64,000 nt of DNA from Catalinimonas alkaloidigena. GTDB lineage: Bacteria > Bacteroidota > Bacteroidia > Cytophagales > Flexibacteraceae. The position numbers and the translations under genes are program-made. The notes below the pieces were generated by a model. It searched no databases. It saw only the letters and a list, made by a program, of their open reading frames with translations, and had not been told where the DNA came from. Shown piece by piece: positions 6,624 through 10,542 of the stretch (position 1 is the first letter of the stretch; each line of letters opens with the position of its first letter). Location: contig NZ_FNFO01000009.1 of assembly GCF_900100765.1 (NCBI RefSeq), positions 124,001-188,000 of the forward strand, read 5' to 3'.

Positions 6624-7085
6624 ATGTATCAGTTAAGTGTTGGGCTGAAAAAACAGGTCATCGGGGCCTTGATCAGACAAAAGCAGGAAGAATTGTACGC
6701 GATGCAGGGGTTTCAGCACCAGCAACTGGTGGCGGTTTCGGATCAGAACCAGGACAGCTTGCAACTGGTCGAATCGCCTCTTGAGGAAACGATGCAAAGC
6801 CTGGAGTTGTATACGCGCAGCATGGATCAGCTGAGCCGGGAAATCGCGCTGCTGCAGGAAATTGATCCGGACGTGTGGCACGATCAGATCCGCTACGGCA
6901 GCCTGGTCAAGCTGCAGCAGGTACTTCTGCTGGTGGCGGTGCCCGCTACCCGACACCGCATTCAGCAGTTTGACGTGTACGGCGTCTCCCTTGAGTCTCC
7001 CATCTATCGGGCCCTGGAAGGGTTGCTGCCCTCGGATCGATGCTACTTCGGGGGGATCGACTATTTTATTGAAGACATTCTGTAA
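6624..7085 (+). CDS. GreA/GreB-like protein
   Basis: A 153-residue protein from the ATG at 6624. An upstream in-frame start at 6525 would lie within a terminator and is rejected. The N-terminal half is helical and could form a coiled coil. The C-terminal half ends with GVSLESPIYRALEGL and a FGGIDYFIEDI tail, which resembles the end of the GreA/GreB FKBP-like domain (isi-SP-lg-aLlGk ... y-I-ei). Proteins of this type are common in Bacteroidota and have been mislabelled 3-oxoacyl-ACP synthase. The acidic coiled-coil tip of true Gre factors is not evident, so transcript-cleavage activity is doubtful. It precedes the sensor/flavoreductase fusion by 23 bases and probably shares its operon. Confidence 0.7.
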   Translation: MYQLSVGLKKQVIGALIRQKQEELYAMQGFQHQQLVAVSDQNQDSLQLVESPLEETMQSLELYTRSMDQLSREIALLQEIDPDVWHDQIRYGSLVKLQQVLLLVAVPATRHRIQQFDVYGVSLESPIYRALEGLLPSDRCYFGGIDYFIEDIL

Positions 7086-7108: not shown

Positions 7109-8740
7109 ATGGCAGTCACCGATTTACACCCCCATCTCCGCGCCGAGCATATCGAACAGATGTCAGCGTTTGGCCACCGCCTTGGCATTGCGCAGGGAGA
7201 GTACCTGCTCCGATCCGGCGAAAAAGCGCACAGCCTGTTTGTGATCCTGGAAGGCACCGTAGGGATTTTCGACGATACGACGCAGGAAAGGATTACAACG
7301 CACCAGCCCACGGAGTTTACAGGCAACATGACGGCGCTGTCGGACCGTCGGTTCGAGTACAATGCCGTGGCCCTGACCGATGTCGTCGTGTTGCAGGTTC
7401 CGCAGCTCCGCCTCAAAGAACTGATTAGCCAGACACAGGAGTTGAGCGAGCTGTTGCTTCGCACCTTTTTAGTGCGTCGGGTCAGCGAAGTGGAAAACAA
7501 GTATGGTTCCATCAAACTTTTTGGCTCCCGGTATTGTCCGGCCGTGTTCAGGCTGAAAGAGTTTTTCTCTAAAAACCACGTGCAGTACGTATGGGTGGAC
7601 CTCGAAAAAGACGCTACTTCGGAACGCATTCTGCAGGAATTCGGGGTAGGTGTGGAAGAAACGCCCGTGGTCATCACCAACGATCACAAGATCTTCAAAA
7701 CGCCTTCGGTCGAAGAAATTGCGGCGGAGCTGGGCCTCTCTTCCCTGCAGGACGCCTCGGTCTTCGATGTAGTGGTGGTGGGGGCCGGGCCGGCCGGCCT
7801 GGCCGCCAGCGTCTATGCCGCTTCGGAAGGGTTACAGGTAGCGACCATCGACGCGCTGGGACCGGGCGGGCAGGCCGGTACCAGTTCCAAAATCGAGAAC
7901 TACCTGGGTTTTCCGCTGGGCATCTCCGGCAGTGAGCTGGCCAGTCAGGCCTATCTGCAGGCACAGAAATTTGGTTGCCATATTTCCATTCCCCACGAAG
8001 TGAAATCCCTTCGCTTTGAGGGCAATGTATTCCAACTTTCGCTGGCTTCGGGACACACCCTGAAAAGCAGTACGGTCATTGCGGCTACGGGCGCGGCTTA
8101 CCGAAAACTTTCGTTTCCCAACCTGGCGATGTACGAGGGGCGGGGTGTCTACTATGCCGCGACTCCCATGGAGTTGCAACTGGTGCGGGGGAAAGAAGTG
8201 ATCATCGTCGGTGGGGGAAATTCTGCCGGGCAGGCCGCCGTATTTTTATCCGCTCACTCCTCCAAAGTGCATCTGGTCATCCGAGGGCACGACCTGCGCA
8301 ACTCGATGTCCAGTTACCTGATCCGACGACTTGAGCACGATCCTAACGTCACCTTGTACACCCATACGGAAGTTACGGCGTTGGCGGGCGATGGGTACCT
8401 GGCGCAGGTGGAATTGACGGATCGCCTCTCGCAGCAAAAGACCTGGAAAGACATCAGCAATCTGTTTTTGTTTCTGGGGGCTCAGCCCTGCTCCGCCTGG
8501 TTGCGTTCGATGACCTGCCTGGATGAGAAGGGATTTGTCGTGACGGGACGCGACCTGACGCAAGACACGCTTGCCCGCTACCAATGGCCGTTGCAGCGCC
8601 TCCCGCAGAGCCTGGAAACGTGTGTACCGGGACTTTTTGCCGTAGGTGACATGCGCAGTGGGTCGGTGAAGCGCGTCGCGTCTGCGGTCGGAGAAGGGTC
8701 GATGGCCGTGAGCCAGGTACACGCTTTCTTGACTGCGTAG
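7109..8740 (+). CDS. Cyclic-nucleotide-binding/glutaredoxin-like/thioredoxin-reductase-like fusion
   Basis: A 543-residue three-part protein. Residues 1-125 resemble a CRP-type cyclic-nucleotide-binding beta-roll without a DNA-binding helix-turn-helix. Residues 134-210 look like a glutaredoxin/thioredoxin fold with a single Cys143 (YCPAVF) and the cis-Pro region ETPVVI. From 219 on it is a TrxR-type FAD/NAD(P)H oxidoreductase with GAGPAG (225-230), the second dinucleotide site GGGNSA (368-373) and the C-terminal FAD motif VGDMRSGSVKRVASAVGEG. Where TrxR has its redox CATC, this protein reads AATP (350-353), so both redox cysteines are gone. It may reduce another acceptor or pass electrons through Cys143. 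The Dps gene follows, which suggests an oxidative-stress setting. Confidence 0.9.
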   Translation: MAVTDLHPHLRAEHIEQMSAFGHRLGIAQGEYLLRSGEKAHSLFVILEGTVGIFDDTTQERITTHQPTEFTGNMTALSDRRFEYNAVALTDVVVLQVPQLRLKELISQTQELSELLLRTFLVRRVSEVENKYGSIKLFGSRYCPAVFRLKEFFSKNHVQYVWVDLEKDATSERILQEFGVGVEETPVVITNDHKIFKTPSVEEIAAELGLSSLQDASVFDVVVVGAGPAGLAASVYAASEGLQVATIDALGPGGQAGTSSKIENYLGFPLGISGSELASQAYLQAQKFGCHISIPHEVKSLRFEGNVFQLSLASGHTLKSSTVIAATGAAYRKLSFPNLAMYEGRGVYYAATPMELQLVRGKEVIIVGGGNSAGQAAVFLSAHSSKVHLVIRGHDLRNSMSSYLIRRLEHDPNVTLYTHTEVTALAGDGYLAQVELTDRLSQQKTWKDISNLFLFLGAQPCSAWLRSMTCLDEKGFVVTGRDLTQDTLARYQWPLQRLPQSLETCVPGLFAVGDMRSGSVKRVASAVGEGSMAVSQVHAFLTA

Positions 8741-8953: not shown

Positions 8954-9427
8954 ATGGAAACGATCACAGCAACTCTGGAAGAGAGAACCAAAGAAGTAGC
9001 GTATATGCTCAATACAATTTTAGCGGACGAGTATGTGCTCTACACCAAAACCCGCCACGCGCACTGGAACGTAGAAGGAGGCGATTTTCAAAGTCTGCAC
9101 CTGTTTTTTGAGACGCAGTACCGGCAGCTGGATGCATTGGTGGACGACGTGGCGGAGCGGATTCGGACCATCGGCCACTATGTACCGGCCCATCTCAAGA
9201 TGTTTCTGCAGGAAACGCACTTTACGGAGCAGGAGACCGCAGCCAATGACGGCAAAACGTACCTGGGCGCACTGTTGAGCGACCACGAGGCCCTGATTCT
9301 CCACTTCAAAGAGATTCTCCCTTCCCTGGAAGAAAAATACCGGGACTTGGGCACGGCAAGCTTCGTCAGTAAACTGCTGGAAGTGCACGAAAAAATGGCC
9401 TGGATGCTTCGCGCGCATTTGCGATAA
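8954..9427 (+). CDS. dps: Dps-type DNA-protecting ferritin
   Basis: A 157-residue Dps/miniferritin. The ferroxidase region is intact: HAHWNVEGGDFQSLHLFFE followed by LDALVDDVAERIRTIG gives the conserved His, Asp and Glu ligands that sit at the dimer interface in the family. Dps dodecamers oxidise Fe(II) with hydrogen peroxide and store it, protecting DNA. The start ATG at 8954 fits the family length. It follows the flavoreductase fusion on the same strand after about 210 bases and probably has its own promoter in that gap; no clear consensus promoter was found there. Confidence 0.95.
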   Translation: METITATLEERTKEVAYMLNTILADEYVLYTKTRHAHWNVEGGDFQSLHLFFETQYRQLDALVDDVAERIRTIGHYVPAHLKMFLQETHFTEQETAANDGKTYLGALLSDHEALILHFKEILPSLEEKYRDLGTASFVSKLLEVHEKMAWMLRAHLR

Positions 9428-9600: not shown

Positions 9601-10542
9601 ATGAAGGCCATCATCCTTAACGAGCCCGGCGGCACCGACGCCCTGCAGTACACCGATCTTCCGAAACCCGTCCCCCAGAGCCACGAGGTGCTGGTGCAAA
9701 TCAAAGCGATAAGCATCAACCCGGTAGATGTAAAGACCCGCATGGGGAAAGGCATTTACGGACGTATCAAAGCGGATTCTCCTCTGGTTATCGGGTGGGA
9801 CATTGCCGGTGTCGTGGTGGAAGTAGGCGATGAGGTAGAAACTTTTCAGAAGGGAGATGCGGTTTTTGGCATGGTCAACTTTCCGGGCTACGGCGGGGCC
9901 TATGCCGAGTATGTAGCGGCACCGGCCGATCAGCTAGCCCTCAAGCCGCCGTCGATTTCGTACCAGGAAGCGGCGGCGAGTACCCTGGCCGCATTAACGG
10001 CCTATCAGGCCATTTTTGAGAAAGCGAATGTAAAAGCCGGGCAACGGGTCCTGATTCATGCGGCGGCCGGGGGGGTAGGGCACTTTGCAGTACAGTTGGC
10101 GAAGCGCATCGGCGCCTATGTGATCGGCACTTCGTCGGCCAGCAACAGAGACTTTGTGTTAAGCCTGGGAGCCGATCAGCACATCGATTACCCCACCACC
10201 TGCTTCGAGAAAGAGGTGCTCAATGTAGACCTGGTGCTCGATACGGTAGGCGGCGACACCATCGCGCGTTCTTTGAAAGTCATCAAGCCCGGGGGGACGC
10301 TGATCAGCATTCCGACTGGTATTCCAGCGGAATTGACCGCGCAGGCCCACAAAGCCGGTGTAAACGCCTTCTTTTTCCTGGTGCAATCCAGCGGGTATGA
10401 CATGCGGCAGTTGGCCGAGCCGCTAAGCTACCATCAACTGAAAGCACACGTTTCACAATCGTTTTCGTTTGACGAAATGCCCCAGGCACATGCGCAGGTG
10501 GCCAGTGGCCGCACGGTAGGCAAAGTCGTCGTGGAGCTGTAA
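9601..10542 (+). CDS. NADP-dependent oxidoreductase, quinone-oxidoreductase type
   Basis: A 313-residue medium-chain dehydrogenase without zinc-ligand pattern. The N-terminal GroES-like domain carries GWDIAGVVVEVGDEV, and the Rossmann domain has AAAGGVGHFAVQLAK, the signature of zeta-crystallin/quinone oxidoreductases, followed by GADQHIDY and VLDTVGGDT. Enzymes of this group reduce quinones or enones with NADPH in the cytosol. It stands alone between Dps and the convergent AraC gene. Confidence 0.93.
   Translation: MKAIILNEPGGTDALQYTDLPKPVPQSHEVLVQIKAISINPVDVKTRMGKGIYGRIKADSPLVIGWDIAGVVVEVGDEVETFQKGDAVFGMVNFPGYGGAYAEYVAAPADQLALKPPSISYQEAAASTLAALTAYQAIFEKANVKAGQRVLIHAAAGGVGHFAVQLAKRIGAYVIGTSSASNRDFVLSLGADQHIDYPTTCFEKEVLNVDLVLDTVGGDTIARSLKVIKPGGTLISIPTGIPAELTAQAHKAGVNAFFFLVQSSGYDMRQLAEPLSYHQLKAHVSQSFSFDEMPQAHAQVASGRTVGKVVVEL

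Follow-up and report, generated by a model that had tools for sequence, protein, structure and literature searches.

A thioredoxin reductase-like flavoprotein family without redox cysteines, coupled to a cyclic nucleotide-binding-fold domain

The Locus

The gene discussed here lies in a 64,000-nucleotide stretch of the Catalinimonas alkaloidigena genome (the window, by which we mean this whole stretch), where all features given below are on the forward strand. It is an intact open reading frame with an ATG start at 7109-8740, and it encodes a 543-residue protein in which Pfam recognizes a cyclic nucleotide-binding (CNB) domain, a glutaredoxin (Grx)-like domain and a thioredoxin reductase (TrxR)-like FAD/NAD(P)H domain. 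A gene for a 153-residue protein (6624-7085) ends 23 bp before it. The first-pass annotation had called this gene GreA-like, but neither Pfam nor a PDB sequence search returned a match that would support the label. The genome encodes a relative of this protein with 37% identity on contig C14. Downstream lies a Dps/ferritin-like gene (8954-9427), whose earlier Dps label is upheld by its match to Ferritin (PF00210, 1.3e-21), followed by a quinone-reductase-like zinc-type MDR gene (9601-10542), for which the nearest NCBIfam model, PIG3 NAD(P)H quinone oxidoreductase, is matched below its cut-off. A Dps gene is near the reductase at locus L051 as well, and L013 has both a Dps gene and a homologue of the 153-residue gene. 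A promoter scan, of a kind that does not cover Bacteroidota promoters, gave no sigma-70-like site.

A Conserved Three-Domain Architecture

The N-terminal domain (residues 8-132; 7130-7504) is a CRP-like CNB beta-roll with a long helix after it. Pfam places cNMP_binding (PF00027) at residues 28-108 (8.5e-15), and residues 4-132 of the AlphaFold2 model have the CNB fold, with 5h5o as the top structural match (Z 17.6) and CRP at a Z of about 15. The middle domain (residues 133-210; 7505-7738) matches Glutaredoxin (PF00462) at residues 135-193 weakly, barely over the cut-off (6.7e-5). When residues 126-215 were folded alone, AlphaFold2 returned a glutaredoxin (pLDDT 83.5), for which Foldseek found BC3987, Mrx1 and cGrx1. 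The C-terminal domain (residues 217-543; 7757-8737) matches Pyr_redox_2 (PF07992) at residues 219-530 (2.9e-29), residues 215-543 adopt the TrxR fold in the model, and the nearest solved chains are TrxRs. By sequence, the best PDB match of the protein is the TrxR 4gcm (140.9 bits), with the ferredoxin-NADP reductase (FNR) 3lzw at 72.9 bits. Pfam detects no HTH or other DNA-binding domain, as had been noted earlier. The full-length AlphaFold2 model, built from a 10-sequence alignment, is of moderate confidence only (mean pLDDT 70.5, pTM 0.54); its weakest stretches are in the flavin domain, local confidence at the FAD site is low, and it cannot position Cys143 with respect to the FAD. Structure prediction thus gave the CNB and TrxR folds in the whole protein and the Grx fold from the middle piece alone.

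The nearest relative that we found is in Cesiribacter (61% identity), followed by proteins of Flavobacteriaceae (43-47%). Because these relatives are full-length, the fusion of the three domains described in the first-pass annotation is a real and conserved architecture and not a chance arrangement. Relatives occur in Bacteroidota, Actinomycetota, Pseudomonadota and Gemmatimonadota. A plasmid scan returned 125 records, among them Rhodococcus, Streptomyces, Paraburkholderia, Cupriavidus, Rhizobium, Deinococcus and Gemmatirosa, and 53 of 395 genomes from the phylum of the window encode a member at E <= 1e-80. Annotation pipelines already know the architecture: some members bear the RefSeq product name "cyclic nucleotide-binding domain-containing thioredoxin-disulfide reductase". 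The "distinct redox switch" proposed earlier is therefore a distinct family, but it is not a one-off. No NCBIfam model reaches its cut-off among the best 25 listed for the window protein, which scores below threshold against both the TrxR model TIGR01292 (219.8 bits, cut-off 343.45) and the AhpF model TIGR03140 (157.7 bits, cut-off 502.9). PADLOC matched Pycsar/TIR proteins only weakly, and it was the CNB domain that drove these matches. The family is widespread and uncharacterized. Our literature search, which covered few subscription journals and is weak evidence on this point, found no characterized member; what it found was a response-regulator class, listed as a REC-thioredoxin reductase combination (PMC5847659) and as the TrxB class (PMC9953108). 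No mention of a link between a CNB kinase and REC-TrxB was found in that literature.

Cofactor Motifs Without a Redox Thiol

An alignment of 45 family members shows a flavoprotein core that has hardly changed. The FAD motif GAGPAG (residues 225-230; 7781-7798) has G225, G227, P228 and G230 in all 45 members, the NAD(P) Rossmann motif GGGNSAGQA (residues 368-376; 8210-8236) has N371-S372-A373-G374-Q375 in all 45, and the C-terminal FAD motif GD...KRVASAVGEG (residues 513-530; 8645-8698) is equally constant at G513, D514, R522, A524 and G528-E529-G530. Over the alignment as a whole, little or no variation is seen in GxGPxG, PGGQ, ENY..FP, NSAGQ, R392, GD and the GEG that belongs to the last FAD motif, which is in keeping with the FAD/NADPH domain predicted at first.

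The position where TrxRs carry their CxxC pair is a different matter. The CATC site reads AATP (residues 350-353; 8156-8167), as first reported, within the context Y349-A350-A351-T352-P353-M354, and CxxC is found in none of the 45 members. In the TrxR of the same genome CxxC is succeeded by Phe residues, and these are missing as well. With no CxxC in any aligned homologue, the internal-disulfide relay of TrxR cannot operate; on its sequence this relay is excluded, and the earlier statement that the flavin lacks its usual route holds for every aligned member.

Nor does another cysteine take over across the family. Cys143 (7535-7537), the sole cysteine of the Grx-like domain, was singled out in the first-pass annotation. 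As a defining redox residue of the family it finds no support: it occurs in 2 of the 45 members only, namely in the window protein and in the relative from Cesiribacter, with Ser at this column in 40, and is thus lineage-specific. Pro186, by contrast, which is the cis-proline of the Grx fold, is present in 45/45. A second column, that of V359, holds Cys in 31 of the 45 members (18 of the 20 CNB-type ones), but not in the window protein. The family thus has no common redox thiol. Both the window protein and the protein at L007 have Cys143 and lack the column-359 Cys; the thiol has possibly moved within this lineage.

The Sensor Domain in Cis and in Trans

The phosphate-binding cassette of the CNB domain is non-canonical (G72-N73...S78-D79-R80...F82...A88; 7322-7372). 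In an ungapped alignment to MlotiK1, the Glu that contacts ribose is replaced by N73 and the Arg that contacts phosphate by F82. The columns of the 20 CNB-type members are in line with this: the Glu position has D in 12, E in 6 and N in 2, and the Arg position is taken in most cases by A or S and otherwise by I, F or V. An S-x-R motif is common instead, with R80 conserved in 16/20, and this shifted Arg may substitute for the canonical one. Despite the CNB fold, ligand binding probably departs from the classical cyclic nucleotide mode. The genome contains two class III cyclase genes, which makes it likely that the cell has cyclic nucleotides.

Twenty of the aligned members have the CNB domain in cis. 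Most Bacteroidota relatives that we found instead carry a receiver (REC) domain in front of the same Grx-like and TrxR-like unit, and every member examined has one sensor module or the other. The genome of the window encodes both forms, with the REC paralogue (PF00072) at L002/L056 (L056:6405-8066). At all 25 REC-type loci examined, a neighboring histidine kinase has an N-terminal CNB domain of its own, and on the reductase-domain tree a single change, at a branch with support of 74/99, separates the CNB from the REC labels. Taken together, it appears that a CNB sensor is joined to the enzyme either in cis or in trans through a two-component relay. A sensory role for the N-terminal domain, as suggested at first, fits well with this, since in the sister group the CNB domain sits on the neighboring kinase and the reductase has REC; gating of the cAMP type is weakened by the F, A or S in place of the phosphate Arg.

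In the kinase at L056:8063-9514 (minus strand) and its equivalents at L057-L080, the CNB cassette reads GxLP[YF]SR[ML]. This strongly conserved motif stands in place of the canonical Glu/Arg, which suggests an unusual ligand for the kinase domains. The cassette of the MlotiK1 row in the kinase alignment agrees with that in the separate ungapped MlotiK1 alignment.

Associated Genes

The distribution of a gene for a small UBP zinc-finger protein follows that of the reductase. In eukaryotes the UBP zinc finger is a ubiquitin-reading fold. A small UBP gene scores above cut-off in 36 of the 395 genomes, and 33 of these 36 encode the reductase, compared to 53 of 395 overall (Fisher p about 1e-30, a value that ignores phylogeny); in the other three, all flavoprotein matches are more distant ones. 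In 22 genomes the two genes are at most 10 kb apart, and UBP adjoins the reductase in Rhodococcus, Streptomyces and Rhizobium as well. The paper on prokaryotic antecedents of ubiquitin makes no mention of UBP (PMC1779556). Neither a UBP gene nor an antiporter gene was found adjoining the window gene. The single UBP gene of the genome is on contig C4 (L088:6851-7126, minus strand), next to cytochrome c and SCO1/SenC genes rather than a reductase.

A second neighbor is a CPA2 antiporter, most like KefC though below the cut-off, whose gene accompanies the reductase at 12 of 25 REC-type loci and at 2 of 18 CNB-type ones. Kef-like CPA2 antiporters with a C-terminal UBP zinc finger are encoded at L078:2267-4312 and L080:7668-9698, and one with a C-terminal glutaredoxin-like domain at L060:3219-5594 (minus strand). 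Some loci add a DsbA-like protein, and four have glyoxalase/dioxygenase-family and carboxylesterase genes, which presumably resemble quinone-detoxification genes such as mhqO/mhqD. At these four (L061:364-2069, L063, L064 and L065) the pair is upstream of genes for the antiporter, DsbA-like protein, UBP, kinase and reductase.

In actinobacteria the reductase gene is the end of a grpE-dnaJ-cbpM-clpB-trxA-(UBP) cluster. The actinobacterial plasmids L047, L049, L101 and L103 have a GrpE-DnaJ-CbpM-ClpB-TrxA cluster closed by the reductase, possibly a mobile stress-tolerance locus. Relatives in Paraburkholderia are found in a metabolic, not a stress, context.

Proposed Function and Alternatives

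We favor a signal-gated, thiol-free NAD(P)H:acceptor flavoreductase of stress defense, a predicted activity to which we give an even chance of being right. NAD(P)H would reduce the FAD, from which electrons would then move directly to an acceptor outside the protein, as in TrxR-type FNRs and quinone reductases. The Grx-like domain, with its fold and cis-proline kept but mostly no catalytic cysteine, could connect sensor and enzyme as an adaptor or docking surface. Activity would be switched by a small-molecule signal, probably one other than classical cAMP, acting through the fused CNB domain or, in the paralogues, through REC once it is phosphorylated by the CNB histidine kinase. The small UBP zinc-finger protein is the probable working partner, in many Bacteroidota along with the Kef-like cation/proton antiporter; these partners point to electrophile or oxidative-stress defense, with which the glyoxalase/dioxygenase-family, carboxylesterase, Dps and chaperone neighbors agree. 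The metabolic setting in Paraburkholderia and the want of a UBP or antiporter gene beside the window gene speak against it. A wider reading, which we hold tentatively and think more likely wrong than right, is that of a multi-phylum module: a thiol-free flavoreductase under a non-cAMP CNB sensor (in cis, or as CNB kinase plus REC), to which UBP would belong as a dedicated partner and, in many cases, a Kef-like antiporter as effector. Here Cys143, in the absence of the column-359 Cys, might provide a second, lineage-specific electron route in the lineage of the window.

The main rival is a non-catalytic redox sensor, in which FAD and NAD(P)H report the redox state and, along with the CNB or REC input, control a partner (the antiporter or UBP) by binding, with turnover being incidental. 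The presence of sensor modules in every member examined and of partner genes adjacent or fused to the system would agree with this, as would the precedent of KefF, a flavoprotein with a regulatory role for which the newer model of activation invokes binding competition (PMC10224563). However, the residues of the NAD(P) and FAD sites are as invariant as those of enzymes, which suggests turnover, and we judge the rival unlikely.

Direct transfer from flavin could also serve a TrxR-type ferredoxin/flavodoxin-NADP reductase similar to YumC, which would supply or drain ferredoxin as the sensor dictates. FNRs of the TrxR fold also lack CxxC, and the model matches 3lzw and 6gas at a Z of about 14, albeit at large rmsd. 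The sequence is nevertheless nearer to TrxR than to FNR in bits, and no ferredoxin or flavodoxin gene is seen among the identified neighbors, many neighboring ORFs being unannotated; on these grounds a YumC-like role seems quite improbable. Much the same can be said of the classical cAMP- or cGMP-gated reductase of the first-pass annotation. The CNB fold and the two cyclase genes speak for it, but the replacement of the phosphate Arg by A, S, I, F or V, the Asp or Asn at the ribose position in 14 of 20 CNB-type members and the GxLP[YF]SR of the kinase domains make such gating doubtful and the reading improbable. Finally, thiol-disulfide reduction through another cysteine is very improbable, for although Cys143 occupies the catalytic position of glutaredoxins and most relatives have the column-359 Cys, neither is family-wide, the latter is absent here, and the Phe residues that follow CxxC are gone.

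What is at stake is a large family, spread over several phyla, that is annotated as thioredoxin-disulfide reductase while the residues that define this activity are missing from every aligned member. If the module reading is true, flavin chemistry would be tied into one stress circuit with a sensor for a small molecule, a bacterial UBP zinc finger and a Kef-like antiporter. The occurrence of the cis and trans forms in one genome offers a direct way to test how the sensor commands the enzyme.

Comparison With Known Systems

Low-Mr TrxR (TrxB) shares the FAD/NAD(P)H fold and motifs with the window protein and is its best match in sequence and among the best in structure, but the window protein lacks the CxxC and subsequent Phe residues and adds the CNB and Grx-like domains. 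AhpF, the top Foldseek match, likewise has a thioredoxin-fold domain N-terminal to a TrxR-like one. AhpF has a double thioredoxin fold with CxxC at its N terminus and relays electrons via two CxxC pairs, whereas the window protein has a single Grx fold with one Cys and no CxxC. The TrxR-type FNRs resemble the window protein in lacking CxxC. Compared to a monothiol glutaredoxin, the fold and cis-proline are retained while the conserved catalytic Cys is replaced by Ser in most members; compared to a classical CNB domain, the fold is there and the Glu/Arg pair is not. KefF, the ancillary subunit of KefC, is a small FMN protein of the flavodoxin fold without sensor domains and is not homologous to the window protein. 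Kef requires this flavoprotein, a quinone reductase (PMC10224563), and the likeness to our family, an oxidoreductase tied to a CPA2 antiporter, is an analogy only. Closer to hand are the RefSeq CNB "thioredoxin-disulfide reductases" of Rhodococcus and Streptomyces, with the same architecture, about 41-45% identity and no CxxC. Their name implies a disulfide reduction that the sequence does not support, and the actinobacterial genes differ in belonging to a ClpB-TrxA-UBP cluster. The REC-TrxB response regulators, as represented by the paralogue in the same genome, have the same Grx-like and TrxR-like unit, with REC in place of CNB and the CNB domain on the neighboring histidine kinase.
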